Under the pieces are notes generated by a model. It searched no databases. It was not told where the DNA came from and saw only the letters and a list, made by a program, of their open reading frames with translations. Below, in pieces: positions 1,680 through 63,263 of a stretch of DNA of 64,000 bases (the stretch's first letter is position 1; each line of letters opens with the position of its first letter). The stretch is from Polytrichum commune. Taxonomy: Eukaryota > Streptophyta > Polytrichopsida > Polytrichales > Polytrichaceae. A program made the translations under genes and the position numbers. The stretch spans positions 52,662,758 to 52,726,757 of the forward strand of contig OX485805.1 in NCBI GenBank assembly GCA_950295325.1, written 5' to 3'.

Positions 1680-2000
1680 AAGGATATTTATTTAACTGCC
1701 ACTCAGAAATCTAACACTGGAAAGTGCAGAAATTTTTGAAGCCACTGTTGAGGCGGTTTGCAGGGTTTTGAGGTCGACGAACATTAAAATCCAGAACGAA
1801 TTACTGCTTTGGTGTGAGAATCACGCGCAATGTAAAATTCGGATGTAACGAGGATGTATATTTGAATGAGGTTATCTATATGAATGCCATTCAGAAATCT
1901 GAGGCCGCTGTTTAGGCAGTTTGTCGAGGTTGCCGAAAGCCAAAATCCCAATCAAATCACGGTCTCGGTTTGACAATCACGCGCGAGTGGATTTCAAGGT
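1680..2000 (-). repeat. Duplicated 3' tail of gene 1 last exon and 3' UTR
   Basis: Two direct copies share TCAGAAATCT (about 1703 and 1891) and TCACGCGC (1821 and 1978). The copy at 1868-2000 contains the real last codons and stop (1957) of gene 1. The copy at 1680-1850 is a diverged duplicate of the same segment, including the region encoding the final residues. The duplicate is not joined to the reading frame, so it is a vestigial exon end. Confidence 0.65.
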
Positions 2001-5000
2001 GATTGCTGAATTGGCCATACAACGCGGTGCTGTCGAGTTTGTTGGTTCCTTCGGGAGGAAGGAGTTCAAAGGACTGGATGAGGCGGCCGAGCACAAGGGG
2101 CAACAAGGGTATGGCGATGATGCTTCCCGGGCACGCGCGTCGGCCCGCACCAAAGGGCAGGAACTTGAAATCGTTTCCCGTCATTTCCATGCTGCTGTTT
2201 AAGAAGCGCTCAGGGTTGAAGCGCTCGGGCTCGTCCCAGTACTTAGGGTTATTGGCAAGCCACCATGAGTTCACGTAGATGCGGCTCTGTGCGGGAATGT
2301 CGTACCCGGCGAGCTTCGCGGCCTCAAGGTTCAAGTGGGGGAGGAGCAGCGGGACAATCATGTGCAAGCGTATCACCTCCTTCACAAACGCGCTCAAGTA
2401 GGGCAGCTTGTTGTTGTGAGTGTCGGCTTCGCAAATCAAGTGGCCTTTTCCGAGAATGGTGTCGAGCTCATCTCGAATGCGCGATTGTACGTCGGGGTTG
2501 TTCACGAGCTCCAAGATGCCCCACTCGATCCACCACAGTGTAGTTTCCGTGCCTGCGCAATATCCAAGAAAACATCACATTTTTAGAAACATTGCATGAA
2601 TGTTATGAACTACGTAATGGATGTGAGGATCCATGTCACGGCCGAGGAATGGTAGCAACGAGGTAGCTAACAAGCGCCTACTACAGTTGATGGCGGGGCG
2701 ACATGTAAGAATTTTAGTACCTGCAGAATTCACATTCTCAATCATGTGGAGGACGTTGTCTTCATCAATCTCTCCCTTCTTTTGCGCATCCAAAATGTAG
2801 TCAATGCCAGCCGCCTTCGTAGTTGAGGAGTGTGGCCCCTTCATAGCCAAAAACTTCCTGCAATTTGTTCCAATCCATAAGTTACCGCCCTCAATTTCAT
2901 CCTCTAATTAGTCCTCAATGAATCTTGATTCTGTATATACACTTCTCCACTGCAAACTTTAGTAGAAAACTGCTGCATTTGTTTGTCACTAGTCTTGAAT
3001 GCCAATCCTCGCAAGATCGTTTAGGTTTTGACTGAAGTTTGCATGTAACTTAGATTGATGTTAACATGCACTTATTTGCTAGCTTAGTACTTTTTTTTTA
3101 CTTTACTTTGAATTTTTTTTAAAATTTTCATTAAGTAAATTAATTTTTGAAATTAATTTTTATAATACTGAGAATGCTTTGCACAAATGATATCAACTTG
3201 CTTCCAATAGTTAATACCCAGAACAACTTAAGATTCGAGGTTTTTAACATTGCATACAAGTATGTGTAAAGTCTTGGCGAGATGGCTAAAATGTGACCTT
3301 GAGAGCTTATGCATAAAATCACCCAAATTTGTAAAGATTTTCATTACCATGTTTAAAAAGTGATATCGGGCTATTAAAAATTGAATTTTTAGCTTGTCAT
3401 ACTAACTTAGGATGGGGGTGAATCAAGCTAGCCTTGTGTGGGCTCATCTAGGATTTGTGGATGACATGTCCCATGGAAAAACTTTAATTTAGATCCTAAA
3501 GTTCTCTCAAGGTGTTTCATCTAACTTTCAAAATTAGGCTTTGACACATGACAAGGTAACAACCTCTTACTAAGAAATTCTCTCAAACAAAGATGGATAA
3601 AATTTAGGGTCCCATTACTCTTTGAGGGACTCTACGCATAACTCTATTGGATGTCACCCTGCCTAGTAAAATTGTTACGCCACGTGGCATGTTGGGGGGC
3701 GGGGGTGGGGGGGGGGGGGGGGGTTAAGGGTTTAAGGGTTTAGGGTGGAAGTGCACACTCACTTGTGATCCTCCAGGAAGCCCTTGAAGATAGCGTCCCT
3801 CTTTTCCTTGACATCTCGGCAGACGCGGAGGAACCCTCGCAAGAATGGTCGCAACACGGGAATGAAATCCCCATAGTTGTAGTCGAAGCTCTGCGTAACC
3901 TGGCTCCGTTTCAGGTTAAGCGCCTTCAGCTTCACGAATAGCGGATCCTTCTCGCTCTTGAACCGCGTGTTGAACATCATGCGGTACATGACGTTGTAGA
4001 TCATGAGCTGCAGCCTCGTGCGAATGACCACACCATCGGTCGCAGCTTCCGGCCGGGCCGAGAGGTCTTCGATCACGTGGTCGACTTCGTCCACCCATGC
4101 GGCGTGCATCCCTTGCACCGACTTGGTGGTGAAAAATGGCACTGTCATGATGCGTCGCATCTTGCGCCAATGGTCGCCGTAATTGGTGAACACCATGTCT
4201 TGTCCGTGTCCACTGAAGATGTCGAACACCACGTTGCAGACTCGGGATCCAAACGCTACTCCCTGCGTGTGGAGAACCTCCTTGGCGCTTTCTGGGGATG
4301 ACACTACCACCAAGTTTCGTTGTCCCATCTTCAACATGAACACATCGCCATACTTCTTCGCCAGCTCTGCCAGATATTTGTGGTTCAAATCATCCCCTAC
4401 CTGCAAAAAAAACACTCAGCATCAGCACCACGACATGAATAGTGCAGGCTGGGACATGATCGTGACATTTATCAAGCCTTGTAAGGTCGCTCCCTTTCTA
4501 TCTGTTCTAGCTTCAAGAATGTGTTTCCAAGAGGCAAGGATTGCATCCATGTACACCGACCACAGTCATCTTGCAACCTTTTGAAACTAGTCGACACCTC
4601 ATTGTTGCCTGTCTTTGAGCATGACAACTACATGAATTGCGTGACATGACATTCTGAAGCCTTGTAATAGATTCAAGAACAATTTCCAAGAACCAAGGAT
4701 TGCATGTGTATATCCCTACCATAGTCAAGTTGCAAGATTTTGGCATTAGTCGACACCTCATTGTTGCCTATCTTCGGGCATGACGACTACGTGAATTGCG
4801 TGACATAACATTTTTAAGCCTTGCAATAGCTTCAAGAACAAATTTCCAAGAACCAAGGATTGTATGTGTGTATGCTCAGCATAGGTTAGTGGCAAGCTCT
4901 TGATATTAGTCGACACCTAATTGTTGCCTACAGACGGGATTCAAGCCTTCTCCCATTTACCAAGATTCAAGGGCGCGCCTCCCGCATGGAATCTTATTTG

Positions 5001-5636
5001 TGTCTGTAGGCTACATATTAGGCCACTCAAGAATGTTATGGATCCTGGATTCACAGGAGGATTTCACTTCGAACCCGAAATCTTGTATACCTTTTCCATC
5101 ATCCGGTTATGTAAAGGCATGAAAGAAGGCGTGACCATTTCAGCAAATTCTTTATTAGTTATAGTAGACTCTGGGAAATCAGCGACCTGCTTGGTTATGG
5201 ACCCAATCTCTAAACAAATTGGTCAGATCACTTCCAAGCGAATCCCCAGTGAGCTATTTCTCAAGGGATTTTCTCTTGCGAATTATGCGTTTAGGGGTTA
5301 AGGTTTATTTCTTCCTCTGCCCAAATTGAGCATGATTTGGTCCTCACAAAACAACGACAAATAGAAAGCACTGCATACCTGCAACCAATTACCGACAACG
5401 GGTAAGGCGATTGGACCCGGGGGGAGCTTCATCCTCGGAGCTCTCAGCTTCGCAACGATCACAGACACCACGATTACCACAGCCAAACCTTGCGCAATTC
5501 TGCCGAAATTGAGCATGGTTTCGGATTCACTAGTGCTAATTCCTTCCAGAACAGTTGCTGTTTCCGCAAGGGCTATCGGGATCCACGACAATGCCGCCAC
5601 CATCACCATGACCGCCAACCTTAACCCCATGTCCAT
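1957..5636 (-). CDS. CYP73A: CYP73 family cytochrome P450 (cinnamate 4-hydroxylase-like), gene 1
   Basis: Four exons on the minus strand: complement(5379..5636), (3763..4400), (2721..2857), (1957..2552), totalling 1629 bp and 542 residues with no internal stop. All introns are GT-AG; intron 1 is phase 0, after the codons for NWLQ. The family hydroxylates trans-cinnamate to p-coumarate at the ER using cytochrome P450 reductase. Visible landmarks: hydrophobic segments at about residues 5-24 and 48-63, proline hinge LPPGP (71-75), C-helix WRKMRR (from 164), I-helix AGTETT (from 344), ExxR (403-406), PERF (458-461) and haem loop FGAGRRAC with Cys485. The ATG at 5636 was chosen because it is the first in frame; only a GTG and CTG precede it. 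It is longer than the usual about 505 residues because of the N-terminus. Odd: AGTET instead of the AAIET I recall for C4H, and Cys141 where an arginine is usual. Family assignment is secure; the exact substrate is not. Confidence 0.93.
3693..3723 (+). repeat. Long G-tract in intron 2 of gene 1
   Basis: A nearly uninterrupted run of about 30 G on the plus strand, so C-rich in the transcript, is broken only by single C and T bases. It abuts TTAAGGG/TTTAGGG telomere-like units (about 3724-3746) beside the exon 2 donor at 3762. It could form a quadruplex on the plus (non-transcribed-sense) strand and may vary in length between reads. Confidence 0.85.
4465..4925 (-). repeat. Tandem repeat, three units of about 160 bp, in intron 1 of gene 1
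   Basis: The motif TCGACACCT followed by ATTGTTGCCT recurs at 4591, 4750 and 4910, a period of 159-160 bp. Each unit also shares TTCCAAGA and AAGGATTG. No open frame is conserved across units. Confidence 0.85.
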
Positions 5637-5906
5637 CAGCACCGATCCTCCTTTTCCGGGAGAAACCTCAACCCAGAACTTGAAGCCTCACCAAAAGTTT
5701 AGTCTCCAACCAGAATTGTTGCATGAAATTTTCTGCAGCTAAAACAAGAACAATACCAGACCAATCTGAGATTCACTGCAGCAGCAGGAGCAAGCCCACA
5801 AGAGCAAGATTGCCCCAAAAACCTGTCGATGAGGCTGTGCTGGGGAGAGAGGTAAGCAGATTCAGACATATACCTCGGTGATGAAATGAGTTAGTGTGGA
5901 GGAGCC

Positions 5907-5914
5907 ATTTATAC
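5907..5914 (-). promoter_or_regulatory. Probable TATA box of gene 1
   Basis: On the minus strand the sequence reads GTATAAAT, about 270 bp upstream of the chosen ATG. This is a good TATA match and would imply a 5' UTR of roughly 240 bp. No transcript evidence is available. Confidence 0.5.
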
Positions 5915-5919
5915 TGCCG

Positions 5920-7735
5920 TTAGTACCCACCATTTTGGACCAAATCATTCTGTAATATTTGCACGGACCGAATATGGATGTACTAGGACAACTACCCCTG
6001 CAAGTGCACATCTGAAATTATAATAGCAGTATCCGAACGTACAAGTCTGAGCAGAAGCTGCCGAAAAGGTTATTCAGAAGCTCCAACTCCAGAGTGTCCT
6101 CGACGATGAACGCCACAAATCATGGCCAAGGCCGTTGTACAGTTACGAGTTTGTCACCATGGGGAAAGCCCCTCATGACGTAAGAAGGACATGCGCAAGC
6201 ATGACATACCTTAAGAGTATGTCACAACACACGTCGTTCTACCGTTGCTTTGCTTTACAGGGCTTGAATCAAGTAATAAGTACTACTCAGGGTTTGGGGC
6301 CCTCCATTCCACATGGAGCATCGCTGCCAATCACGGGCAGCTTGTCAGATATTGACATCATAATAAGGGCATCATAATAAGTACGAAACTTATACGGAAT
6401 TTTAAAAATTGCAACACGAGTGGGGATTGAGGTACGTACAGAAGGAATGTTGGTCGGAGATGATGCAATTGTTTTTCTCGAGATAAGTTGGATTGTATTT
6501 GCATGCAGGCACCTCGTGCGAACATATCTTTCCTAGTTCTTTCTGGCCATTCACCATTCACCAGCAGCCTGTGCTTTATAGCTAGAGTATGATCAAGTTA
6601 CATATTGCCAGGCGTCCGTTCTACTTGTAGATGCTTCATGAGTCTCTACCCGACTCTCTTATGATGAGTGCGGGTAACTGTTTCAGGTTGAAAGTGAACA
6701 TCTTAAGTTGCAGTAAAATTGGTATCATCATCGATAAAGGGGAGGGGTACTCTCAAAAGTGAGATGGGTTTTCAAAAATGGAGGCACTGGGACCGGAAAA
6801 ATGGAAACAATTTCCTGATTGGTTGTTAGGTCATGTGAACCATGTGGGTAAAATCAGAGTGACATGTAGATAGTTGTCCATAGCGAGTGTGGGTTATCAC
6901 TTCCAAGTAGGTTAGTCATCGCAACACTAAAGTGTTATTGGAATAGAAGATGGCCGTCAAGTAGGTTAGTCATCACAACACTTGGATGCTTAAGAAAATA
7001 GGAAGGTGGTTGTGTGCACACCTTTAAGAGAGCAACCTTCCCAAAGTTGGACTTCTCCTTTGCACTTGTGATAACATAAGTTAGCACTTGAGCCATGTGA
7101 CCTAGGTATACTTCACATTTTTCTTCTTTTTTAGATCCTCGTTTCCTTTTGCTATATCTTTTTGGCATGGCAGAGGGGTACTAGTGCTAATGTAGAAAGG
7201 GGGACATCGCAGTGGCAACAGGAGGTCTACAACATAGAGCTACACAACGATCACAGGCAAGTGATTCTCCTACTTGGCTGAATTTTTGCGGTTTGCAGGT
7301 CACTGGCTAGCAATCTATCAAAGTTGATATGTATAAAACAGTCAATGGCATGCTATTTTCCGAATGCAATCCAACCGAGTCGGTGACCGAAGTTTTTGTT
7401 TCGTAATTACTGCGGGTTACCTATTCTTATGTTTTGTTAGGATCGGTTTTGGTGATCTGAACTCAATGGGCTTCTTCCTCATGATGCCCCTTGCAATCCG
7501 AGGATCAATTTCATAGTGGGGTATTTGATCATTATGCTAAATTATCAACTTTATTAAGAACATGATTGAATTCTGCATTTCCCTGGGTGGGCGGCATTAC
7601 TCACAAGCTCATTACAATCACCACGACCAATTCGTGCTGCACAATTACTCTTCTTTTGCACAATGACGTATGTGACCTACTTAATTCAAATCATCCTTGT
7701 TTATATACACTTCACAAGCATGTGCCATTCTCCGA
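5920..7735. other. Intergenic spacer between tandem CYP73 genes 1 and 2
   Basis: No gene recognised. It holds the distal promoter of gene 1 and the far 3' flank of gene 2. Short imperfect direct repeats such as AGTAGGTTAGTCATC (about 6906 and 6960) are visible. No transposon ends were found. Confidence 0.5.
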
Positions 7736-7738
7736 CAG

Positions 7739-8288
7739 ATTGCACTCCCAACTACTCACAATGCATTACATTCCTCAAACCAATCCCATACACAGATGAC
7801 AGTACTACACCATCCACAGCTTCAAGCTCTGCAGCAAATGACATGGAATTGGCAAGCAATTGAAGCTTCAACACGTCGAATGTTAATGCAGCTGCTGGTA
7901 TTCTAAAATACATATATTTCAACAAGTCGTTAAATATTATTCCTAAAAGGCTTGACAAGCTTGCTACAAGGGTTCGTTGGTTTGAAATTGTGGTTTACGA
8001 AGCCATGTAGATTACACTCCCATCTATTCACAATGAATTACATAGGTCCTCTTAAACCAATCCCAGATACTAATGACAGTACTACACCATCTCAACCACA
8101 GCGTTAACATCTGCAGAAAATATCATCGAGTTGGCATCCACGATGAAGCTTCAACACGTCACAAGTTGATGCTGCCGGTATTTCACATATATCCGTCAAC
8201 AGGAACTTGGTGAAAACCTTAAGAAGCCTGAATAAACTTGCTACTGGGGATTTTTGGTTTTTTTTTTGCGATTGACGAAGCCATGAAG
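7739..8288. repeat. Tandem duplication (2 x about 270 bp) in the 3' flank of gene 2
   Basis: Copy A (about 7739-8007) and copy B (about 8008-8288) share CACTCCCA-CTA-TCACAATG, CAATCCCA, TGACAGTACTACACCATC, GAAGCTTCAACACGTC and ACGAAGCCATG in the same order. Copy B ends close to the stop codon of gene 2 at 8315, so it probably covers the 3' UTR. Confidence 0.8.
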
Positions 8289-8314
8289 TGCATTGAATCG
8301 TAATTGCTGCCAGC

Positions 8315-11449: not shown

Positions 11450-11535
11450 AGCTATGCTTCACCCTGCCGATTCTCCTTTGCTACTCAAACTACTGAAACC
11501 TCAAATAACTCCAGAGAAACAGTATCCCGGCCTGC

Positions 11536-14184: not shown

Positions 14185-17100
14185 ATATATTTTAAGAACG
14201 AATACAAATGAATCATAGATTAAAGAGCCTCCAAGTATATATTAACTTTACATAGGGCCGCATTTGATACGTATAAGATAATCACTCCACACAATGTGCA
14301 TTTGGATGATAAGAACGTTGTCCAAGCTATTGGAATGGGATAAAATATCGTAGAAGTAATTTTTGAAGATAATATCAACCAAATTTGTATCAAAGATCTG
14401 CTGTATGTGTCCAAATTGCATGCCAATTACTCTCGGTGAGCAAACTTATATCGAGCAGTTTGAAGATCCAATTCAATTATACGAATACATTATCAAATCT
14501 TGGAATGGTGAAGCCATTGCAATTGCGCCACGTGAACATAATTTGTACGAAATCAATTTTGTAAAGGTACACGAAGCAGAAACCGCCAACTTTGTGCAAT
14601 ATCCAACGAGACATGGCGCGCTTGAATTTTGGCACCGCCGCATTAGCCATTTGAACGTGAAAGGTGTTCATACCCTCCAAAATATGGTGAGTGATATGAA
14701 CCTTGGCAAGTTTTCTTGTCCCACATCCTCGTCCTTTGTGAAACGTACATTATAGGCAAATAGTATAGGGTTGCGTTTACGAATGAGGGGGGGAAGTGAG
14801 CAACCAAGCCTTTGGAAATCGTACATACCGACGTGTATGGCCTCATGAGGACTACATTTATGGGCGGTGCAAGGTATTTTATAACCTTCATTGATGATTT
14901 TTCAATGAAGATATAGTTGTATGTGTTGAAATCAAAAGAAGATTGTTTTAATAAACATAAGGAGTTAAAGGCACTCATAGAGACGCAATTGGAGCACAAA
15001 ATCAAGACGTTTCGATCGGACAGTGGCTGGAAGTTTGTTTTCAAGGCATTCAATCATTTTTGGAAGGATCATGCTATCGAGAAGCAAATGTCTATACCGT
15101 ATACATCTAACAAAATGAAATGGCGAAGCATGCGAATCATACCATTATGGAGATGGCAAGGAGTATATTTTATGCTCAAAACCTCGACATTTAATTTTGG
15201 ACAGAAGCGGTGGTTAATGCGGTTTACACACAAAACCGTTGTCCAATATGGGCGTTGGATTCCATTATGCCCGAGGAAGCGTGAAGCGGAAGGCGGCCTT
15301 GCATTGCACATATTCATGTGTTTGGGTGTATCACCTACGCAATGGTGCAGGAAAAAAAAATTATAAGTTCGTTGCAAAAGGTATAAAATGTTTGTTTCTA
15401 CATTATTGTGAGGGAACTAAGGCCTATAGGCTAATATACTCACAAACTTTAAAAAACATAAAAAATAAAGACGTAATATTCATAAAGGATGATATGAGCA
15501 TTAGAAACGCTTTGCAGATGCGTTCAAGTGGAAAATGAAGGCCCTACGATGGTTGTTGTAGAAGAATCTTCTAAATTATCTTTGTATGATGATGGTGAGG
15601 AGAGCGAGGAGTAAGTGGGAGATTACTTGATTACAAATAAAGAGGCAATCAAAATTCCCCTAGAGAATGATGGCTGCGTTGAGAGATTCGGCAAGGATGA
15701 AAGATATCCTAAGAGGGAGCGGCATCCGATTGGAGAGTGATGGAAGAATGACATTCTATTCCAACACGGTGAGGAACAGACCAATGTGACATTGTTGGAT
15801 GATCTTTTGAATTTGTGTGAAACTTTGAGATCCGAAAATGTGAGCACGTGAGAGGCCGCAATGCAAGAGCAATACGATTTGCTCATGGCCAAGGGCACAT
15901 GGAATCGTAAGAGTGTTGGATGCAAATGGGTGTTCTCCATCAAGAATGATGCATTGGATGAAATTGTTAAGAATAAGGCACGGTTAGTAACAAAGGTTAT
16001 TCTGAAATAGACAAAGTGGATTTTAATGAGACCTTTGCTCCCGTGTCCAAGTTTATCACCATTAAATGCATTCTCACATTAGGAGTGGCCATGAATTGGA
16101 AGATCTACCAAATGAATGTAAAAACGGCGTTTTTGAATGGAATATTGGAGGTGGAGATTTATATGGAGTATTCGGAGGATTTTGTATAAGAGGGGAAAGA
16201 AACCTAATGTGCAAACTCAAGAAACATTTTTATGGGCTCAAGCAATCGCCAAGGGCGTGGTACCACTGTATCGATTTATTCTTCATTAATGAAGGTTTTT
16301 GTAAGAGTCAAGTGGATTATTCGTTGTACATCAAACAAACGGGTGAGTATATATTGGTGGTAATGCTCTATGTGGATGATTCGATCATATTGGCAAGCAA
16401 TGTAACCCAATTGAAGTGGCTCAAATCGGAGCTCGAGAAAAAAATTGAGATGAGCAATCTCAGAGTATTGCATTATTGCATAGGAGTGGAATTTGGGAGG
16501 AATAAAGAAGCCCATACCATCACCATGAATCAAAGGAGGTACATTAAAGAGATCCTCAAACAATTTATCATGGAAGAATGCAAACCGGTCGGAATTCCGT
16601 TTAATGTGAATTCAAAATTGTTAAAACTTTTAGATGAGGAATTTGTAAATGTACAAAGGAAAACGAAAGGTGTTTCATACAAGACTGGAGTAAGATCTCT
16701 CATGTATGCAATGGTGGCCACGAGGGTTGATATTGCATTTGCGATGAGTACGGTGAGCCAATTCATGTCAAAGACCGGTACACTACATTTGATGGATGTG
16801 AAATGCATCATGAGGTATTTGAAGGGCATTTTGGAATTCAAATTATGCCTCGGAATTAAGGATATTATCTTAAGAAGTTTTTGTGATGCGGATTGGGTAA
16901 GAGATGCAAATGACTCGCGATCCACTACGGGGTACTATGTGTTTTTTTGGGGCATTGGAGTCATTGTGTGGAAATGCAAGAAATAACCAACCATTGCATT
17001 ATCTACGATGGATGCGGAGTACATGGCTATTAGCCATTGTATTAAGAAAACAGTTTGTCTTAGGTAACTTTTGGCAGATGTGGGATATGTGCAAGAAGGA

Positions 17101-19545: not shown

Positions 19546-20121
19546 CTTTTTTTCTAACAAAGATAACGCTACCTTTGAGAAACTACATAGACACAGTGAG
19601 AACGTAGTATACTTAAGCTCATTAGGCAAATACCATTACAGGGATGGATTGATTAGCCCTTCATTAGTCTTTAATACATGCATATGAAGGAGAAAAGCAA
19701 TGGACGAGTGGCAGTAGAGTATCTCCTAAGCAATCTCTTTATTTCCTAGTGGACAAATAACCGTAGAGTAGGGTAACATTATTTTGTGGGACTGACAATA
19801 TTTCACGGAATATTCCATGATATTTCCCACAGTCAGAGACTCATTTACCGTGACCATAAAACCGGCACTCATAAAACCCATGTACTAAGCTTTGAAGAAA
19901 GTGGCTGTAAGTCTATTTGGGCCCAAGCTCTATTATAACATTCCTCCATGAATCCTATCTACTCATGGGGTTTGGCCTCCAGGTTTCCATTATTCTCGAG
20001 TTGTCCGGAGCTAGTGGAGGGGCGTGCATCTCCTACAAATGGCACAATTGCAAGAATAGGTGATGATGTTCTAGACATTCCGGGATCCAAGTCTTCCTCT
20101 ACTTCTGTAGCTCTCTGTTTA

Positions 20122-21592
20122 GGGCCACTTCACACACGGGACTGAGAGCCCGTGACCATTACACTTCAAGCACTCTCATTGATGGGAAAGGCGGAGCCGG
20201 TCCACATTCGCTTGAGGGAGCAACGGAGCATGTGAATGCAAGATGGATGTAGAGTCTACATGGGTTCCTACATGGCATCAAATGGATCATGTTTCATGGT
20301 CACTTGGACTATTCTCAAAAACCACCTCGTGGAGGTAGGCCTAACACAAAACTAGGAGACAATGACACTCTGAACGCTCACAACTCTTGGTTTAATCTAC
20401 TTTATCATGTGTGAGGACCCGCATGAATAGAAACTCATTGAAATAGCATTTGGTTGAGGGCCCGGCCACATATGACTTCACCCCTCACTTGAGGGTCCGT
20501 GACCATACAACGTGTCGCAACCCTTGCTAGGTCCCTTAATAATCTTGCCAATTTTCGTTTCTAGCAAAGGTTACCAGCGCTAACCATTCGCATTCCGCCA
20601 TGCTAATGGATAGCTCCTCTTACCCCGGACCAATTGTTCATAGGAGGGAACCAACCCTCCTACTTTGCTTTCGGGACTCACGCACCCCTTAATCGGTAAC
20701 CCATTTCCCCAATGTGGACTTCCATCCATGGAAGTCCAATCCTATGTTGATCATCGCGTTGCCGGAGCAACACTACAACAACCCGAACCATACTAGGCAA
20801 CTATGGCCTCACAATGGGCCAATGCCCATGGAGGCCGTGCCGTTCGGCCTCGGGTGGGTGAGGCCACACCACCTCACCCATATAAGCCTCTAGGACTCTA
20901 CACGGAGCCCCTACCCCACCGCCAACCAACCTCTTGTCTCTCTACCAAGAGTTGGGGCCAAGTGGACATTTTCCCTTAGCTGCTGGGCCTAGAACCCCCC
21001 CAGCAGCTTCAGACCATCATAACTTCCTTGTATGATGTCTGATCGTAACAACCAACCACTCCATCCTCATCTACGCTTCACGTAGATGCCGATGGACTCC
21101 TCGCTTGCCCCATTTGGGCAAGTCATGAGGAAGTTATGCCTGTTTGAACCTTGGCAGTCCCGGGAATCACTCCCAGGCACTGCTGTACCAGGGCGCTGTC
21201 CCGGGACAGCACCCCACTCAAATGGCCATAACTCCTAGCTCACACCTCCGATTGAGGTGATCTTGAGCATTCTAGAATCACCACGCCATGAGCTACGCAT
21301 AGCTCATGGCCTCACCCTCATGCCTCCTAGTCTTTGTGGGTGGGAGGCGTTCCCAACGCCCGGGGCCCTCACCCACACTAGGATCACTTGGGCCCTCTCA
21401 CCAACGGCGCCACAAGTCCCGGGTGTCACTCCGGGGTCCCCCTTGTGCCCATGGTGTTTCGGGCACTCCTCATGGAGAGGTGCGCGACACAACGTGATGT
21501 TGCAGGCGTGTTGGGACGGCCTTTGGACCCTTTTTCTTTTGGGCTCTCACAATTCTATGGTCACGGCTCTTGGCTCATGTGTGAAGTGGCCC
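20122..21592. mobile_element. PIF/Harbinger-like MITE (family 1), interrupted by a solo LTR
   Basis: The termini are inverted: GGGCCACTTCACACA at the left, and TGTGTGAAGTGGCCC-type sequence at the right. They are flanked by a 3-bp TTA duplication (20119-20121 and 21593-21595). Inner sequence 20150-20507 matches the inverted 52487-52090 copy, and 21490-21592 matches the other end. Subtracting the LTR and its duplicated 5 bp leaves about 489 bp, close to the 498-bp copy. The TTA target and GG-ended TIRs fit PIF/Harbinger. No transposase is present. Confidence 0.85.
20513..21489. mobile_element. Solo LTR (977 bp) nested in the MITE
   Basis: It starts TGTCGC and ends GCGACA, with a 5-bp CAACG duplication on both sides (20508-20512 and 21490-21494). 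Removing the insert and one CAACG restores a sequence colinear with the uninterrupted relative at about 33615-33660. It contains a TATATAAG-like promoter motif near 20878 and a perfect 16-bp palindrome, GCTGTCCCGGGACAGC, at 21195-21210. The length and TGTCGC start suggest a gypsy-type parent, but no internal domain remains to prove it. Confidence 0.85.
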
Positions 21593-22850
21593 TTAGTCTC
21601 AGAAACTTTGACCATTTCATAGTTGTTGGACTTGTTTTCTTTGGTGTTGATCGGGTCCAAGGCCAGCGCTCCATTAGATTCAGAGGGCCATGTAATGCTA
21701 TGGAGGAATTAAGTACTAGGGTCTCCCATGAATTTGGTTCCCGAGCTTCCAAGGTAACGCCGTGCCTTGGTGGGGGACCTAAGTACTTAATTCCTTAGGT
21801 ATATATGGTAAGGTTAGCATGGCCTGGCTTGGACCTTAAGGATCACGGGTGGCGGGCAAAGGTCCTTGCATCCTTTGCAGTCGTCCCCTCCATCCTCATT
21901 TTACCTTGGGCATGTTTTTCGAGACACCCACATGAATCCTGTGCAAGTCCTCTCGCCCGAATTTCGCAAGAATCTCCTCAACTACCTTACTGCTTTTAGT
22001 GCTTGGGCCTCCTCTTCTGGGAGAAGGTGTAACTTCTGCACCAGGATGAGAGATTTGAGGTCTAGACGCATTTTCAATTTATTTTTTATAAAAAAAATTG
22101 TAATCCAAGTGTAATCCATATGGATTACGAGCATCAAATGCCAGGACTCATGGGTGAAACACACATGTATGAAACTCGTTGCGGATGGAATGGGGTTTGC
22201 ATTAGAACTTGTTTCGTGGTTTTTGGAGAATTGCATTTCACATAGGAAAAAACCAAAACCTGCTTCTTGGTTGAAGGAAACTTGCCCATTCTCAATTTCG
22301 GTATTTAGGGCTTCCACTCATGGTTCCAAAAATCCAATCTTGGGTTTAGGTCCGATGAGATTTGCAATGAATAGATGATCAGCAAGGAATGGAATTTCTA
22401 CTTCTAGCACACACGAATCCAGGAATCTCACATTAGATCCATGCCACAGAAAGTACCTGCTCGCACATTGCAAATGCCCTTTAGGGAGGCATTCTCCAGC
22501 TCCACCCCCCCCCCCCGAAAGGATTGATACACCGTGATGCTCTTGAATTCCCATTTGCCATGCCACCATCCTCTTCCATTCGTTTGTCCCCTATGGGAAC
22601 TTTGTTAGTGTGCCTTATCCTAAATAATGGCATTGTTGACTTCGCCCTTTGTGGCCTTGAGTTTTGCCCCAGCTTGCTTCTATATCCCTGTATATGCCCA
22701 TCCTTGGCAAGCTCGGGGAAGAGTGTCAAAGCCATTGTTCCATGGCTGGTGAGGTTGCTGCCTGGGTGACCAGAATCCACCCAATCCCGGAGCTGGAAGG
22801 GCTGAGGACCAGTGATGGGGGAGATTGTGGTTGAGATCCTAGCTAATGTT
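21593..22850. other. Gene-free DNA with a poly-C tract
   Basis: No gene recognised. A run of about 13 C lies near 22505-22517. Short frames on both strands lack motifs. Confidence 0.4.
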
Positions 22851-22851
22851 T

Positions 22852-23030
22852 GCAAGTCCAACCGCTTACATGTTGACATCCTTTGGTTTTCCTTTATTAA
22901 ATCGGGGTATATTCTATAGATTCCTCTTAAATGATGGGTAATTTTCCTGGAGTCTTCAACTTTAACCGGTTATTTTCCAAAGTCAACCGGTTCATCTGTA
23001 ACTAACCGCCGGTTCTCCCCGATCATAGGG
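22852..23030 (+). repeat. Dispersed repeat D, copy 1
   Basis: It shares AAGTCCAACC-TTACATGTTG, TTTTCCTTTATT, AACCGGTTATT and GGTTCTCCC in order with 51236-51478 and 59186-59401. All copies lie in the same orientation and none is coding. It is a fragment of an unidentified element. Confidence 0.7.
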
Positions 23031-23285
23031 AGGATCCCCAGCTCACCGGGAACCTACCCGGGCTATGTCGTGGCCTTGCTCCTCACCTCCCCAAACCGCC
23101 TCGCCAAAGGTGGGGTCAACGGTTGCCATTGCCCCAAATAACTCCCCGTTACCAAAGCTCTCCACCTGCTCTTGCTAATTACGTCTCAGGTGGGCCGAAG
23201 CACTCAAATTCCTAACTCCACCCCCTTACAATCCTATTGAATTTTGGAAAGAAAAGAAAAGAAAAGAAAAACTGAAGTTGGGTTA

Positions 23286-23672
23286 GGGCCACTTCACACA
23301 CAAGCCAAGAGCCGTGACCATGAAATTGTGAGAGCCCAAAAGAAAGTGTCCAAAGGCCGTCCCCACACACCTGATCGAATAGAATAAATCAACAGTTGTG
23401 AGCATTCGGAGGACCTTGGTCTCTTGGTTTTGTGTTCGGCCTTCCTCCAAAAGGTGGTTTTTGGAGCTACTCCAAGTGACCATGAAATATGGTCCATTCG
23501 ATGCCAGGTAGGAATCCAGGGAGACTTAACATCCACCTTGCATTCACAAACTGTGTTGGTCCCTCAAGCATAGTGTGAAGCAGCGAACTTGGAGCGGCTC
23601 CGCCTTGTCCACCAATGAGAGTGCTTGAAGCGTAATGGTCACGGGCTCTCAGTCTCATGTGTGAAGTGGCCC
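23286..23672. mobile_element. PIF/Harbinger-like MITE (family 1), 387 bp
   Basis: Ends GGGCCACTTCACACA and its inverse are flanked by TTA on both sides (23283-23285 and 23673-23675). It is an internally deleted relative of 51990-52487 in the same orientation. Confidence 0.88.
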
Positions 23673-24052
23673 TTAGTCGAATTCTTCCTTTTTGGCACGC
23701 ATGAAAGCCATATTTGCTACAGAAGAAGCTGTGCCTAGTGAATCCCATGAAGGAAGGATTCACAGGCTAAGTTAGCTCGACATTCAACAGACAAGCAAAC
23801 GAGATTATTGTTTCCAAATCTTGGCCTGCTCTGCTTGCGCTGAGCTCATACTTAATCAATGTAGCTTCATCATGCACGTCGTCACGAGTCAGAGGATCAA
23901 GTCAGGACTCGAAAGTGTTGCAAGAATGATTGGATTAGAGTATTCAACGAACTCGACCATTTTGAGAAGGGGAAAACTACTATTTGAAGACACATAAACG
24001 GAAATCTAATACAAGGGTATTGGCGCGAGCAAGGGGCGGGTGAGATTTTGAT

Positions 24053-53083: not shown

Positions 53084-53086
53084 TAA

Positions 53087-53960: not shown

Positions 53961-53964
53961 TATT

Positions 53965-55019: not shown

Positions 55020-55152
55020 CTCCCTCCGTCGCAAAATGATTGTCCTACCCCCCCCCCCCCCCCCGAGTTTTATGTCCCAAAATGCTTCTAGGAGAAACAT
55101 TTTGGGACATAAAACTCCGGGGAGTAGGACAAACATTTTGGGACGGAGGGAG
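55020..55152. mobile_element. Stowaway-like MITE, 133 bp, near-perfect foldback
   Basis: CTCCCTCCGTCGCAAAATG and its inverse are flanked by TA. The interior also pairs (TTTTATGTCCCAAAATG with CATTTTGGGACATAAAA), and one arm carries a run of about 16 C at 55051-55066. Confidence 0.93.
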
Positions 55153-55311
55153 TATCGATTTTCATACTTTGAAAGTATGAGCACAAACAATTGGTACTAG
55201 ATGTTTTCTTTACTCTAAATTCCACTCAAGCTAGATTGTGATGCCCACAACCTGCATAATCAATAACGATTCGAGTATGCATACTCAATATTTGACAAGA
55301 TTATGCCAATG

Positions 55312-55446
55312 TGTGCTATTAAGTATATCTTCCAGTTATATACGTCTACTTCTTCCTCTTTCTCTAGAGCTTAAATATCAGAACTTAAGCTCTGGAAAAG
55401 AGGAAGAAGTAAACGTACATAATTGGAACATATACTTAATAGCACA
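55312..55446. ncRNA. 135-nt near-perfect hairpin (MITE or miRNA-like)
   Basis: The left arm from 55312 (TGTGCTATTAAGTATAT) pairs with the right arm ending 55446 over about 62 bp, with about six mismatches or bulges and a loop near ATATCAGAA. The arms carry a TACTTCTTCCTCTTT stretch and its complement. I recognise no known miRNA family. A transcribed foldback or a MITE are both possible; the RNA label is tentative. Confidence 0.4.
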
Positions 55447-57435
55447 TATAAGTCTACTGCAATCTACTTTTAGTTAAAACACTTTGCATAATGTACTCAC
55501 TTTTTGACATTATATTAGATTGTCATGTTCATAACATATCATTCATACTAACAAATCATTTACATTGAGGATTGCAGAACATTCTACACTGAATATGATT
55601 TTTACACTTACGATTTGGAGTTACACACTTCTATATCTTCTTACTATTGATTTATTTTCTCACCAATAAAAACGTTAATGTTATGTGATGTCCAAACAAC
55701 CAATCTGACCTTTGTTAGTAAAAAATGAGATGTACATCAAACAATTATAGCATTGCATAATTCCAAATAGTAAACGACACTAAATATCATCATTAGTGTC
55801 GCATATTGACATTCACATACTAAGTTGCCAAGTTGAGGTTCGAGTTGCTGGCATTATATAATATTGTCACAGTCATAGCATATCATTCATAATAACATTT
55901 CATTCACGTCGAGGATTGCATCACATACTAACATACTGACATTCATATAAAGCATCATTCACACGTCTCTATGTATATTCACATTCAAAGTTCCAACAAA
56001 TGGCAATGGTTAAAATGTGAGCAAGTTGCCAAGTTCGAGGTCTCAAGTTTGCCACATTGAGATTGAATCACCAAAATTGGAAAGCTCAAACAGCTCACAC
56101 ATACTATTACCAACTTCCTCATCTAATCACAAGATTTGTAAAACCTAACTTCCATGATAAACACTTTTTTCAACTTCATGCCAATTTTTTGGCAACCTTT
56201 GAACCGCAAGCATTTGCAATATAAGAACAAGAAAAAAAAAAATTAACTAGAAAAATTTTAACTAGAAAATTGCAAAAAATTCAAGACCATTAGATCTTGT
56301 TGGATACAATAGTTCTAGAATTTAATATATATTTTTTGGATTTTTTGGTTTTCCTTGATGTTGGCTACTAGTAGCAATCCACCAACTAGCCAATTACTCT
56401 AAGTCGAATGCTCCAGGTCGATTGTAGTTGTCGATTTAAGGGTAGTTGCCTAATTGGTCGACTATTGAACCAACCTTCTTAAATAAATAAAAATATATAG
56501 ACCACTAGATATTGTAGCCTACAAGATCTAACGGTCCAAAAAAATTAGATTTTTTTCCCTTTGTGATCAGCTGGACCATTTATGAGAGGTTGACTACGTC
56601 AATTTATCCTTGGATAAATTGTTGTACATGGGTAAATCCGAGAACCCCCCACTAACAAGATGTCTTTATTGACTTCTTTATTGTGAATTAGTGGCATGGA
56701 GTTGCATCTATAGCAACAAAATCCAAAAAAGAAATTGTCCTCATGCTTGGATACCTACAATGTGGCTTTGTAAGAGTACTTCATTCTTTGTTTGTGTTGT
56801 CATTGAAGCATCCACTCCCCCATCTACTTGGAAAAGGAAGCGCAACTCATCTCCCACCACTGTTTTAAACAATAGTTAGAAGTCAATTGCTAGTAACAAT
56901 CAACTAGAGCAATCGACCTAAAAAACGACTAGCTCATTACTACATGGAAGCAAATTATCATGTATGTGGGCATCACGTCCCATAACGTGACGTGACGGTT
57001 AGGGGCCGTATCACGTCCATTTGTACATCCTTGGTTGTGGTCTACTATCTTTGATTCACTTTTTATGGAAAGAAAACACTAAAAAATAGCCACAATCACC
57101 ACACCCTACCTCATCAACCCCACTACTCCGCGTAGTGAACTACGCTTGGGGTGGTTGTTCATGCTCCCTTCATGCTCATGTGGCATCACTAGGGAGCTTC
57201 GTGGCCAAGGTTCAGGGAGGAAGCTAAGGAGGCAACCACCTTAAATAATCTATTCCAATGCCAACAAGGATAAGAAACACTTTCATTTCTTCTCAAGTCC
57301 AAAACCTAAACCTATTATAAATTGCATATTAGAAGACCAATTAACCACGCACCAACCACAACCACAAGGATTCATGCCACTTGACAAGTACGAGTGGAAA
57401 AAAAACATAATTGTGGTTGATTACAGTAGCTAGGT
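55447..57435. other. Gene-free A+T-rich DNA with a local duplication
   Basis: TCATA-CATATCATTCATA-TAACA followed by GAGGATTGCA occurs at about 55526 and 55868 (period about 343). No gene recognised. Confidence 0.45.
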
Positions 57436-57780
57436 CGTAAATGGTTATTTTTCTCCACCTAGCCCATACCTCCTAGGACATGAATTACATGATTAGTACA
57501 AGATGGTTACCAAACTCAAAATGAGGCCATAGCAACCACTTTCTTTATAATTCTCGGAGCTCACATGGACTTCTTTTTTATTATTCAGTGAAGATTCTTG
57601 TGCTCATTAAGTGGTCATATAGTCCCCCCCAATTACGTTGATTATTGAACCTAGCATGATGAACACATTTGAGCACGCAGTGCAATCTATCTTAAACACA
57701 TGTCTTCATGGTAACCATTCTTGGAGCCACACAAAACTACATAGCACTCAAATATAGATGTCCGATTGAGATAAGTAACC
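57436..57780 (+). repeat. Dispersed repeat C, near-complete copy
   Basis: Colinear with 48598-48945: AAATGGTTA, CTCCTAGGACAT, CGGAGCTCA, GTGCTCATTAAGTGGTC, ATGTCTTCATGGTAACC and AAGTAACC at the right. Confidence 0.7.
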
Positions 57781-59185
57781 GAATATAAGGCACGTCTACA
57801 TTATTGTGAGTCTTCCACCACCACCTTGTAGCGTAGACAACCCTTGACAACAGCTTTGAAAATTGGTGCAACACTTAAAGTAACAGAAATACTAGGTACA
57901 TTGAACAGGCTGTGTAGGATTGTTGCCAAAAATCTTTTGTTTTGGATTGCATGAGTTAGCTTTTCATACCTTGCAAGCATGAGTGGTGGAGAGAGGGCAA
58001 GTGTTTACTGGATGTTGAGCAAATTTAGATTCAGATAGATAGATAGAGGCAGTGTTCAATATTGACTCTTCAACACCTGTCAAATGCTGATTTGGCCTTC
58101 AGAAAAGTTTTTTTTTTTTTTTTTGGCAATTCAAAAAAAGGTGCTCTGCAAAGTTTCCACCAATCACAGTGAAAGCCTCTCCAAAACTTGCATGTCACAA
58201 AATACAGTGGCTGCAATTTGCAAATTAAAACCATAGTTGGACTCCAATCTTGGCACTCTAGCAAACACTTCCAAATTCCAATAACTCTTACAATTTCTGA
58301 CTTGGCAACTTCGACTCGGCATTGACCGCAACTTCGGCTTGGCTTGGCATATAGCAGAGCTATATGTGAACGTGGATTTTCCAAACAGAGTTGGGTGAAG
58401 AGTGATTGCAGAAGTCAATTGAAACTTGAAACATTGGATGCATTGATGTGAGTGTTGGATGATGATTAATAAGTTCATTATGTAGGGAATCTAAATGATC
58501 TTAGTGCATCATTTTGTTGCATGTACTTCTTCAATATAGCGAGACATCATATTATTTTCATATTCAATACAAAACGGCCAATGTCAAGTTTTTTTTTTTG
58601 TGACATGTTGCAAAAAAGTTTGAAAGTTTGAGTGAAGTGTAATTATTTTAAAGCCCTTTCACATTGAAATGCATACATGTGCACACTTCAAACTTGAACA
58701 CTAGATAGAGGTGCATATTTCCAATCATGACCCCATCGGAACCTTTAGGGTGCCATAATTTTGATCAAGTTGGGACTGAATTTCGATCGGGATAGAACCA
58801 ATAATGCCATGACACATGTCCTAGATTTGTGTGCTAAAGTGAGGAGTGAGCAGTTAAAATGAGTGGTTATGGCATATTCTAGACACTCGTAATATGTTTG
58901 GGCCAACTTTTGATTTCCAAAACTCACAATAATCTCAATTTCATGAATATAATTACCAATTTTTTTTTTATGATCCTATTGATTTCTATCTTCCTACACG
59001 GGAAAAAAATTACACCACCTCATACTTTTCTAGACTTTGCGCAAAATCTCTCAAATGATTAGTTACGGGTGCCTCTACTCTAGATAGATAGATTTGTCAT
59101 GAGTTTATGACCTCTGAAGGCTTGTGTTGTCCATGCCACAGATCATGGTGGCAAGACTCAAGAAGCAGCTTGAAATCATTGCCCG
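57781..59185. other. Gene-free DNA
   Basis: No gene recognised. Short GATA (58037-58048) and poly-T (58108-58124) tracts are present. Confidence 0.4.
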
Positions 59186-59401
59186 GGGAGATTTTTGGGC
59201 ACAATCGGTCGATATCCTGGTGCTTCCAAGGCCAACGAGTTACATGTTGACATCTTTGGATTTTCTTTATTAAATTGAGGTATATTCTATAAAGTCCTTT
59301 AAAATGTTTGGTTCTTTTCCCAAAGTCATGAATTCCAACCAGTTATTTCTCAGTCCCAAAGGCTTCACCTGTAACTAGCAGCTGGTTCTCCCCATTAATT
59401 G
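59186..59401 (+). repeat. Dispersed repeat D, copy 3
   Basis: It shares GGGAGATTTTTGGGCA, GAGTTACATGTTG, TTTTCTTTATT and GGTTCTCCCC with 51236-51478 and 22852-23030. Confidence 0.7.
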
Positions 59402-59599
59402 CTACAGATGCTTTTTCACAAATCTTGTGCATGATGATGGCAGGATCTCATGTGGGCCATCCATATGCCTTATGTCACCTTTAGGTACATGAGTCAGTCT
59501 CAGTGGCCGAGGGAGAGATATGTCATGCATGAGTATAATTTGTGAGACCAGTTCAGTCAAACTTCGGCACATTCATCAGAAATAATGTTTTTTTTATGA

Positions 59600-59990
59600 T
59601 CACATCAACATTTTGCAAGATAATACTCATGGCGAGGTGGATGCATGGCCAAAAGCATCTCAAGAGAGGCTCATCTCATACAGAATTTTGTCACAAAAGC
59701 CTTGCAGTACGTTCATCTGGCAATTAGTTTCTCCTGGATATTCAAACCTGCTTCAGGATATTAGTGTTTCTTCCGACCTTACCCACCATGTTTTAAGATG
59801 ATTAGTTGCAACATTCTGCACGAGAGTGTTGCCTAGAAGGATGCATGGTCGAAAGCATCTCAAGAGATCAGTTTGTGCACAAGTTTGTCACAGTTTTGCA
59901 ACTCATAAGTAATTAGTTGCTGCAGGGTGTTTAAACATTCTTGGAAAGGAAATTAGGGTTACCTCCTAATTTACCATGTTTTAAGGTATC
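59600..59990. repeat. Tandem duplication (2 x about 200 bp) upstream of gene 3
   Basis: ATGCATGG-C-AAAGCATCTCAAGAGA occurs at 59641 and 59841. Each copy continues with TTTGTCACA, AATTAGTT and ACCATGTTTTAAG. It lies 0.7-1 kb before the gene 3 start. Confidence 0.8.
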
Positions 59991-60244
59991 ATGCCACCTG
60001 GCAGAATAAATCAAATCAACTCCATGAAAGACCTCTGAATGTATTGCGTGGTTGCATGAGCACAGTTTCAACTGCAGTTTGCTAGAGTAAGTTAAGTGTC
60101 GAAACTACTGTGATATTTGACGTAAACTTGCCATATATGTGTTTCCAAAAGTGCGTTGTCGAGGGTGACGACAGGAAGACAAAAACCGGTGACAACATCT
60201 GCTTGATGTCATAAATCTGTTGTTTCTGAAGTTCGGATATATAT

Positions 60245-60253
60245 ATATATAAA
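60245..60253 (+). promoter_or_regulatory. Possible TATA box of gene 3
   Basis: ATATATAAAT lies at the end of a short TA run, about 400 bp before the ATG. If used, the 5' UTR would be about 370 bp. It could instead be a plain microsatellite. Confidence 0.35.
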
Positions 60254-60650
60254 TGACCTGGAAAAGACGTCGGGCTGGACTGTATCGATCCGTGCAGAGA
60301 ACGGAACTTACTCTCAGACGATGATTTTGGTGTGCAATTTAGCAGCCTCTCTCGTGTTTGGTAAAAGTCATCATGTACTACAAGTTAGCTGCAACTTTCG
60401 AATCTAGCAGATTCATAACATGGAGAGCTGAGCCGCCCTCGTGTCCTCGATCGCTTGATTAATAAAAACTGAAGATCCTTGCCAGTCTCTTGCTACGTAT
60501 AATCTTGTGACCGGATCCGAAGCCTCATCAGTCAAAAATTTCAGCTATCACTACAATCAACATTGGCTGGTTCTCTCATTTGCTATGAGCTGAAGCAAAT
60601 TGTGCTCTTTAGTCTTGATTGGTGGCAGTTTTGAAGATATTTTGGGAGCA

Positions 60651-63263
60651 ATGGGGTTGAGGATGGCCGTGGTGATGATGATGGTGGGGTTAGCTGAGTG
60701 GATCCAGCTCGTGAAGGCGGACACAGAAGTAATGGAGAGTGTTGTTGCTGCTGCTCCTCCTCCCGTCACGATGATGATGGATCGCCTGCCAAATTTTTTG
60801 AGCATCGCAAGAGTTGTGCAAGGGTTGTTTGTGGCAGGGGTTGTAGGCTTGATCGTCATGAAGCTCCTCCGAGCTCCCAGGATGAAGCTGCCCCCGGGTC
60901 CTCTTGCTCTTCCCCTTGTTGGCAGTTGGTTACAGGTCTGTGCACTTCTCGACTCGTCTACCTGTATCAAGCGCGAATCTATGAATGGCTGAATGAATCT
61001 GTAATGCGAGGTATAGTGCACGATTCTTAGCTAAATTTGTACAAAGAAAGCTTACTTTGGAGTGAAAGTGGAGCTTGGATTTCACAATCATGTCCAGGTT
61101 TGTTCAAGAACGTCAATGTCATTTTCTTCACCCTTGTAAATTTTACAGTCTTGTGCTTTATAAGGCGGGGGCAGTCGATAGATCATCGAAGCTGCCATAG
61201 CAACTGGTTTCAATTTTCACGAGGATTTGGATAATTTCCTGTGAAGCAAGCAGCAACAACTTCCAATTCTCTTCTGTGAAATGTTATGTCAAAGTATCAA
61301 CTCTTTTGTTCGCTGTGGGAATTCCAACTCTACAAATCCAACATTTGAAATTACACGATGATTTGTTCAAGGGCGATAAGTTTGCCGCTGGCGACTTGAG
61401 GGAAAAGGACAACTGAGAATATCTTCCTATGTGGCACAAATTCCTCTTATGCATAAACTTTGCTTGTTTAATAGGACCCGAGGAGATATGACCCGTCCAA
61501 ATCCTCCTTGTGACCATAGCATCATCACAACATCCAGGATTTTGCAAAATGCAATATCATACCTAATCGATCGCTATGTGCAAGAATCATATCCAGTTCT
61601 GTTCACAAATAATAATACATCCGTAGATGACATTTCCTTAACCCTTATAAATTTGCTGACCTTGTGCATAAACCGGAGAGAGATAGAATCTCGCAGATTG
61701 AACCTGCCATACCAAAGTCCAGTTGCGGAAGCATTTTGCACTAGCACTGCAATGTACTCGATCGATCGCCATGTGTGAGAATCATCTGTTCATGCCATTT
61801 CCTAAACCCTTATGAACGTTCTATCCTTCTGCATAAACCGGAGACAGTCGATAGAAACTCGCAGTTCAAATGTGCCATAGCAAAGTCTAGTTGCGGAAGG
61901 GTTTTGCACTTTTACGCGAACATGACGTGACACCGTGTTTTGCACATGCAGGTGGGAGACGACTTGAACCACGAAACCCTAGCCGAGATGTCGAAGAAAT
62001 ACGGAGACGTGTTCCTGCTGAAGATGGGATCCCGTAACGTGGTAGTGGTGTCCTCCCCAGAAATCGCCAAGGACGTGCTCTTCACAAAGGGAGTCGAGTT
62101 CGGATCCCGCAGCGGAAACATTGTCTGGGACATCTTCAGCGGGCGGGGACAGGACATGGTGTTCGCGGCCTACGGTGATCATTGGCGCAAGATGCGTCGC
62201 ATTGCCACCGTGCCATTCTTCACCAACAAGTCAGTCCAGCGGCTGCAAGGCGGATGGGAGGATGAGACTGACCGTGCCATCGAAGATCTCAAACACCGAC
62301 CAGAGTCGGCCACCTCCGGGGTGGTGATCCGGAAGAGGCTGCAGCTGCTCATGTACAATGTCATTTACCGGATGATCTTCGACACAAGGTTCAAGAGCGA
62401 GGAGGATCCGTTGTTTTTGAAGCTGAGGGCGCTTAACCTGACACGGAGCCGTTTGACGCAGAGCTTCGAGTACAACTTTGGGGTTTTCATCCCCATCCTG
62501 CGACCGTTCTTGCGAGGATTTCTGCAACTGTGCCGGGATATCAACCGGGAGAGGCATGCCATCTTCAAGAGCTTTCTCGATGACCACAAGTGAGTGTGTA
62601 GGGTTTAGGGTTTAGTGAAGTAGGCCCATTTACCAGGTTTTGTGACATGTCCACGTCACCCCATGTTTCCCTCCCATGCTTCCCTAGATTGTAAATTAAT
62701 GATGTGTTGATTGCCATTTCAAGTTGGCAAGCTCTCTAGTGAGTGACGTAGAAGCAAGCCCATGCACTAGGTTTTTTGATCCACTTCATCCCGTGATTTC
62801 CTCCCATTTTTCTTCAGGTGGTAAATTGTTCAACGTTGCTTCTTGGTTCATTGGTTTATTTCCACTTCTATGAAAAACAAAAAAAATTAGTATAGAATAT
62901 ATAGTCTTAACAATTATGGTTGTAATGCAAAAACCAACCCACACTGAATACTCCCTTAAATAGTTGCTCCAAAATTATGTTTTAAAGACGCTGACCCCTG
63001 CAGACACAACAGATAGTTGCCACCTGAGGATAAGCCTCAAGTGTTCTAATTCTGTCAATATGCTTTTAGTTGCTATTGATTGAAGGTCGTGTCATGTGTG
63101 TACGTAAGCTGATGGGTTTCAAAATTTGGCAGGAGGATTGCGAGTACGAAGGGTCCTGAACTGGTGAAGGAATGTGGTATCGACCATATTCTCGAAGCAA
63201 AAAAGAATGGAGAGATCACTGAGGCTAACATCCTCTACTTGATTGAGAATCTCAATGGTGCAG
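60651..63263 (+). CDS. CYP73A: CYP73 family cytochrome P450, gene 3 (3' end outside window)
   Basis: Three exons are visible: 60651..60935, 61952..62589, 63133..63263, all with GT-AG borders at the same codons as genes 1 and 2; 351 complete codons with no stop. Exon 3 is two codons shorter (131 bp). The ATG at 60651 is the first in frame. It encodes two hydrophobic stretches (about 4-20 and 54-72), an alanine/proline-rich linker, hinge LPPGP, then [14 protein letters not shown]-helix WRKMRR and the I-helix start ENLNGAG. The haem exon (ExxR, PERF, cysteine loop) is not found before 64000 and must lie beyond the window, unless the gene is truncated. Like its paralogues it lacks the B-C loop arginine (SRSGN) and has AG in the I-helix. 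It is closer to gene 1 than to gene 2 in exon 2. Expected to be ER-bound; reaction C4H-like but untested. Confidence 0.9.
61566..61912 (+). repeat. Tandem duplication in intron 1 of gene 3
   Basis: Two copies share ATCGATCGC-ATGTG, CATTTCCT-AACCCTTAT, TGCATAAACCGGAGA and GTTGCGGAAG-TTTTGCAC (offset 165-195 bp). A weaker third resemblance is at about 61115-61200. The second copy ends just before the exon 2 acceptor. Confidence 0.8.
62599..62616 (+). repeat. Telomere-like motif at the start of intron 2 of gene 3
   Basis: GTAGGGTTTAGGGTTTAG begins 9 bp after the donor. In gene 1 the same intron carries the motif in the opposite orientation shortly after its donor. Confidence 0.8.

Follow-up and report, generated by a model that had tools for sequence, protein, structure and literature searches.

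Three accelerated CYP73 paralogues with altered active-site motifs beside two canonical-motif copies in the moss Polytrichum commune

Introduction

Phenylpropanoid metabolism is entered by way of CYP73, the cinnamate 4-hydroxylase (C4H) family, whose substrate range is considered exceptionally narrow. An Arg-Ser-Gln triad in the F-helix is reported to be highly conserved among 275 CYP73s and to be missing in charophyte best hits and in representative clan 71 members (PMC11405693). Mutation of the F-helix Arg in three enzymes demonstrated that cinnamate binding and C4H activity both need this residue, and docking indicates that the nearby Ser and Gln may join in cinnamate binding (Knosp et al, 2024; PMC11405693). 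The I-helix of C4H is marked by the motif AAIETT (PMC10184913, PMC6270737), and N302, I371, and K484 have been given in the numbering of CYP73A1 (PMC6270737). An assayed hornwort C4H reportedly shares more than 75% identity with higher-plant C4Hs (PMC7165133).

Apart from later duplications, the topology of the CYP73 tree is reported to mirror embryophyte systematics (PMC11405693). Such duplications are recorded in mosses and ferns, and a 2023 review describes their functional reasons as unreported (PMC9953472). In Physcomitrium patens, PpCYP73A51 was found in yeast microsomes, gave no p-coumarate and did not rescue, and PpCYP73A50 was not expressed (PMC11405693). The family thus has a documented moss member that lacks C4H activity. 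By analogy, PpCYP73A51 is the closest reported precedent for the putatively weakened or shifted C4H activity considered here. Compared by description, CYP73A50 and CYP73A51 resemble the three genes analysed below in being extra CYP73 paralogues beside active C4Hs; unlike in these genes, variation around the triad has been reported for A50 (PMC11405693).

Results

Gene models

The window, the whole stretch of 64,000 nucleotides under study (C3:52662758-52726757), lies within the 407.8 Mb genome of the moss Polytrichum commune and holds three CYP73 genes. Genes 1 and 2 are complete and run on the minus strand, while gene 3 lies on the plus strand and overruns the right end. The spliced model of gene 1 comprises 542 aa. 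Its exon 1 (5636-5379) encodes the N-terminus with two hydrophobic segments, as judged by hydropathy, and PPGP; exon 2 (4400-3763) contains the B-C loop SRVCN and the F-helix segment RSQVTQ; exon 3 (2857-2721) ends in ...ENVNSA and the first base of a Gly codon; and exon 4 (2552-1957) provides the rest of this codon and the haem Cys. Gene 2 (529 aa) has one hydrophobic segment only in exon 1 (11449-11231), SRASN and RSQKTQ in exon 2 (10504-9867), the same ...ENVNSA end with the first base of the Gly codon in exon 3 (9469-9333), and the remainder of the Gly codon, TETL, EVMRFHMCIPQLVPH, and the haem Cys in exon 4 (8910-8315). Gene 3 starts with two hydrophobic segments and PPGP in exon 1 (60651-60935), followed by SRSGN and RSRLTQ in exon 2 (61952-62589) and by exon 3 (63133-63263), which ends in ...ENLNGA and the first base of the Gly codon, so that the in-window part stops at ...NLNGAG. 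The adjoining right flank of the same chromosome (L009) completes the gene to 553 aa: past the window, exon 4 (L009:126-397 and 636-971) carries IETT and is divided after AHSQ by an extra GT-AG intron (L009:398-635), which is absent from the models of genes 1 and 2 and of the two further host copies, g4 and g5, described below. Open frames and GT-AG introns are complete in all gene models. One intron follows [N/S]W[L/W]Q, a second falls at the [D/E][H/R]K segment, and a third interrupts the A307 codon, whose first base stands in exon 3 of genes 1-3.

Family membership

The closest solved structure is that of sorghum C4H (6VBY), with E-values of 4e-202 for gene 1, 2.2e-180 for gene 2, and 3.2e-117 for the partial gene 3. 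The next solved P450 follows at 1.3e-65 (gene 1) and 2.5e-62 (gene 2), and for partial gene 3 there is none below 1e-40. Over 484-486 aligned residues, genes 1, 2, and 3 are 60.6, 55.4, and 59.9% identical to 6VBY; this range of 55-61% compares with 24.5-31.7% identity to three other P450s, a comparison in which gene 3 is partial. Pfam scans of genes 1 and 2 returned the p450 family at 7e-110 and 8.2e-97, respectively. As anticipated in the original prediction, the ExxR and haem residues are whole in all three genes; the haem Cys, ExxR, and PERF are present in each, in gene 3 by way of the L009 part, and the Glu-Thr pair of the I-helix is kept as well. Moreover, the F-helix Arg-Ser-Gln carboxylate triad is retained in all three. 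By sequence, closeness to C4H, the triad, and the P450 motifs mark genes 1-3 as CYP73 members. Pattern matches in viral (175) and prokaryote contigs (28) included no relative.

Motif residues

Genes 1-3 share with 6VBY the haem, ExxR, and PERF motifs, R213-S214-Q218, and the N302 equivalent, but differ from it at R103 (lost), A307 (Gly), V305 (Ser or Gly), I308 (Thr in genes 1 and 2), and A370 (changed). Residue numbers were tied to N302, I371, and K484 of CYP73A1, whose spacings of 69 and 113 match exactly in 6VBY. The I-helix of genes 1 and 2 reads NSAGTET (AGTETT and AGTETL, respectively) and that of gene 3 ENLNGAGIETT, compared with ENINVAAIETT in 6VBY; none of the three contains AAIETT. 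The AGTET first read in genes 1 and 2 is therefore returned by the spliced codons. For gene 3, the AG before the then missing exon was correct, whereas the full motif AGIETT means that AGTET does not extend to the whole trio. We also considered AGTET as a splice artefact and rejected this: the Ala in the frame of the last exon is intron, yet exon 3 ends in the same letters and supplies the true Ala, so that the motif stands. Judged by titles, a literature search for AGTETT returned no paper on C4H.

A307G lies three residues before I-helix Thr310. The three outgroup P450s have Gly at this position too (GGSDT, GGSET, AGVET), which places AG[T/I]ET nearer to the general P450 pattern than the label "non-canonical" suggests. 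In the B-C loop, SRVCN (gene 1), SRASN (gene 2), and SRSGN (gene 3) replace the SRTRN of 6VBY, g4, and g5; the reported exchange of the second Arg for Cys, Ser, and Gly thus holds in the spliced sequences, and Arg103 is lost from all three genes. A370 is replaced by Ile, Cys, and Ser. All three genes retain N302, A306, and V118; I371 is present in genes 2 and 3 and replaced by Val in gene 1.

Two further positions were tried as signs of divergence and dropped. Near the ExxR helix, RMAIPLLVPH had been reported to become HM..., and this change relative to 6VBY is real. However, the K-helix segments of the two canonical-motif host copies, RLHMAIPLLVPH and RFHMAIPLLVPH, both have His at 368, so this residue is standard in the host and RxHM is no sign of drift in genes 1-3. 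K484 is replaced by Leu, Gln, and Thr in genes 1, 2, and 3, but its loss is not diagnostic, since the canonical-looking g5 also lacks it (Asn). In g5 (L043:4079-3481), ENRG stands in place of EKGG, and K484 is accordingly not strictly kept in AAIET copies.

Canonical-motif copies

The flanks were searched by tblastn for 20 kb on each side (L009-L012), with 6VBY and gene 1 as queries and E-values up to 1e-5. This revealed g4, a CYP73 gene of 537 aa at L009:8589-4971 (minus strand, C3:52.73 Mb), 5 kb beyond the window edge and beside gene 3, with the motifs SRTRN, ENINVAAIETT, RSRLAQ, and EKGGQFS. The same search gave no match in flanks L010-L012. A genome search with exon 2 of gene 3 returned 55 matches, five at 60-100% identity and the others at 39% and lower. 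By this search the host has five CYP73 loci, three divergent (genes 1-3) and two with canonical motifs: g4 and g5 (L043, C3:21.87 Mb, 536 aa), the latter 31 Mb from the trio and reading SRTRN and AAIETT. The canonical AAIET copy elsewhere in the genome, for which the original prediction had proposed to look, was thus found twice. Both copies also contradict the alternative named there, that AGTET is the standard form of the host's only C4H, and we rejected this candidate.

Identity to 6VBY is 67.8% for g4 and 65.6% for g5. The two share with genes 1-3 the exon plan (barring the extra intron of gene 3), a two-residue insert, and the K-helix His, at 60-67% identity. In contrast to genes 1-3, their SRTRN and AAIETT are whole, they evolve more slowly, and they are 82% identical to each other. 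The insert (DTHNN, DTCNN, DTYDN) aligns between residues L347 and E348 of 6VBY; each of the five host copies has it, and neither 6VBY nor any of the three outgroup P450s does. Together with R368H, it sets the host copies, including g4 and g5, apart from 6VBY. An extra intron after W[L/W]Q is likewise common to all five. Seed-plant C4H genes are not known to have an intron at this site.

Phylogeny

A tree of six sequences (genes 1-3, g4, and g5, with sorghum C4H as the outgroup) unites genes 1-3 in one clade with SH-aLRT/UFboot support of 99.5/100. Genes 1 and 2 group together (98.1/98), and g4 and g5 stand beside the trio (87.3/83). Two other placements of gene 3 were rejected (AU p 0.004 and 0.0007). 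This clade and the canonical copies elsewhere bear out the proposal of one diverged CYP73 branch.

Rooting with three distant P450s instead yields best trees whose root falls among genes 1-3. An AU test on six trees gave 0.62 and 0.63 for the two rooted among genes 1-3, 0.088 for a single early branch of genes 1-3, and 0.051 for a host-lineage duplication, which is barely retained; the two other trees were rejected (0.0015 and 0.0001). Because all five host copies carry the two-residue insert, which 6VBY and the outgroups lack, we take the root among genes 1-3 to be probably a product of long-branch attraction.

Rates and selection

Relative-rate tests reveal acceleration in all three genes. 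Lineage-specific changes number 63 vs 28 (gene 1), 85 vs 24 (gene 2), and 63 vs 25 (gene 3) against g4 (p 2e-4, 5e-9, and 5e-5), and 61 vs 37, 80 vs 30, and 59 vs 32 against g5 (p 0.015, 2e-6, and 0.005); between g5 and g4, the difference is not significant (26 vs 15, p 0.086). Nei-Gojobori estimates for the core, taken from PRMKLPPGP on, give dN/dS of 0.162-0.189 within the trio and of 0.124-0.141 when its members are compared with g4; with dS of 1.1-1.9, and thus above 1, these ratios are approximate. Upstream of PRMKLPPGP, the N-terminal region is weakly constrained (dN/dS 0.33-0.69). Genes 1-3 are old copies with a core under purifying selection.

Among the 303 columns in which g4, g5, and 6VBY agree, genes 1, 2, and 3 all deviate at 25, at six of them with the same residue (6VBY positions 72, 196, 260, 303, 345, and 396, of which 303 is A307 in CYP73A1 numbering). 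When g4 alone serves as host reference, 30 of 329 columns are changed in all three and seven identically. If changes were independent and uniform, about 3.1 would be expected, a naive figure that allows for neither common descent nor site-to-site rate variation. Changes common to the trio exceed chance.

The original prediction further held that the substrate pocket had drifted together. For this comparison, segments were drawn at the presumed positions of the substrate-recognition sites. Changed columns amount to 21, 23, and 16 of 82 within these segments and to 31, 47, and 36 of 221 elsewhere for genes 1, 2, and 3, respectively, so that enrichment is weak in gene 1 (Fisher odds ratio 2.11, p 0.025) and not significant in gene 2 (1.44, p 0.22) or gene 3 (1.25, p 0.50); with the g4-only reference, p is 0.041, 0.32, and 0.43. 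Changes shared by all three genes are not significantly enriched in the segments either (9/82 vs 16/221, p 0.35). In raw identity to 6VBY, the segments are even slightly better kept (0.65/0.62/0.65 vs 0.59/0.54/0.56 for genes 1/2/3). The case for a joint drift of the pocket is weakened, and the absence of significant enrichment in two of three genes points to a mostly whole-protein acceleration.

Discussion

The earlier observation, made from sequence, is mostly right. Its proposal that genes 1-3 form a diverged CYP73 branch holds and gains strength from g4 and g5, which lie outside the window. We see about an even chance that genes 1-3 form a clade of CYP73 paralogues that are old, accelerated, and still intact, and whose C4H activity is weakened or shifted. 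Most likely, a canonical C4H was duplicated inside the host's own lineage and gave rise to genes 1-3, with g4 and g5 remaining as canonical-motif copies. Given the haem Cys, ExxR, Glu-Thr pair, and PERF, genes 1-3 should act as membrane-anchored P450 monooxygenases. As the triad is retained in all three, they likely bind a small aromatic carboxylic acid, which the F-helix Arg-Ser-Gln and N302 would still hold, to judge from the residues. The earlier suggestion of a substrate other than free cinnamate finds no support as stated, for these residues speak for an aromatic acid. The changes at A307, V305, I308, A370, and Arg103 should lie near the haem, going by known P450 anatomy, and probably lower cinnamate 4-hydroxylation or redirect the reaction to a different aromatic acid or position on the ring.

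The retained Arg-Ser-Gln and N302 fit an ordinary C4H equally well. Genes 1-3 could then be ordinary, perhaps sloppier or tissue-specific C4Hs in which the changes are tolerated and which are kept for dosage or expression pattern, and we regard this as quite possible though somewhat against the balance. The intact A306 and V118 of the whole trio, the I371 of genes 2 and 3, and the purifying selection on the core agree with it, but the acceleration runs through the whole clade, 25 of 303 canonical-fixed columns including A307G are changed in all three genes, and P. patens A51 demonstrates that a moss CYP73 paralogue can be without C4H activity (PMC11405693). At the other end, the trio may be a neofunctionalised, stable clade that keeps the carboxylate clamp and oxidises another small aromatic acid or a position other than C-4. 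In this case, the shift would come from A307G and V305S/G, which would open the I-helix, and from the loss of Arg103 in the B-C loop. From sequence, we consider such a new function rather unlikely. If true, then within the literature searched (including PMC9953472) no earlier CYP73 group would have been shown to leave the C4H reaction for a new one. A specific guess would be ortho-hydroxylation of cinnamate towards o-hydroxycinnamate: Polytrichum mosses make ohioensins, for which an origin from o-hydroxycinnamate has been proposed (PMC8309073), and this motivates the idea, nothing more.

The remaining alternatives concern the age and the integrity of the genes. If genes 1-3 belonged to an older CYP73 lineage that split off before AAIET was fixed, AG[T/I]ET would be ancestral rather than a reversal, as the Gly at the A307 position of all three outgroup P450s and the roots among genes 1-3 (AU 0.62 and 0.63) would have it. 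However, long, fast branches and very distant outgroups (~25-32% identity) invite long-branch attraction, the insert missing from 6VBY and the intron after W[L/W]Q unite all five host copies, and the agreement of the CYP73 tree with embryophyte systematics also speaks against an early split (PMC11405693), which we judge very unlikely. That the three are functionless, decaying copies is, in our estimate, extremely improbable: they evolve faster than g4 and g5, gene 2 has one of the two N-terminal hydrophobic segments, and gene 3 has an extra intron, but frames and splice sites are whole despite dS above 1, core dN/dS is 0.12-0.19, and the haem Cys, ExxR, and PERF are kept.

A single genome with two canonical-motif copies and three intact, accelerated ones, which have pocket changes in common and keep the carboxylate clamp, offers a paired test of duplicate function and of the residues that C4H activity requires in addition to the known Arg.

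Further observations at the locus

Two hydrophobic segments and a long N-terminus occur in four of the five host CYP73s, with one segment in gene 2. The N-terminal exons of these four lie at 5636-5379 (gene 1) and 60651-60935 (gene 3) of the window, L009:8589-8347 (g4), and L043:6956-6720 (g5), and the F-helix Arg stands at position 244-260 in these copies compared with 213 in 6VBY. Such N-termini recall a seed-plant CYP73 paralogue with altered membrane anchoring (PMC9953472).

Between genes 2 and 3, Copia-type retrotransposon fragments occupy 14360-16986 of the window (RVT_2, 4.3e-31), where gag_pre-integrs and rve score under the curated Pfam cut-offs. Window positions 20001-24000 have a G+C content of 0.49, compared with 0.37 and 0.38 in the adjoining 4-kb bins, and two long open frames there are without a Pfam match. 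To the left of the window, a long open frame (L011:8040-8963) contains HRDIKPSNVLL and presumably encodes a protein-kinase catalytic domain.
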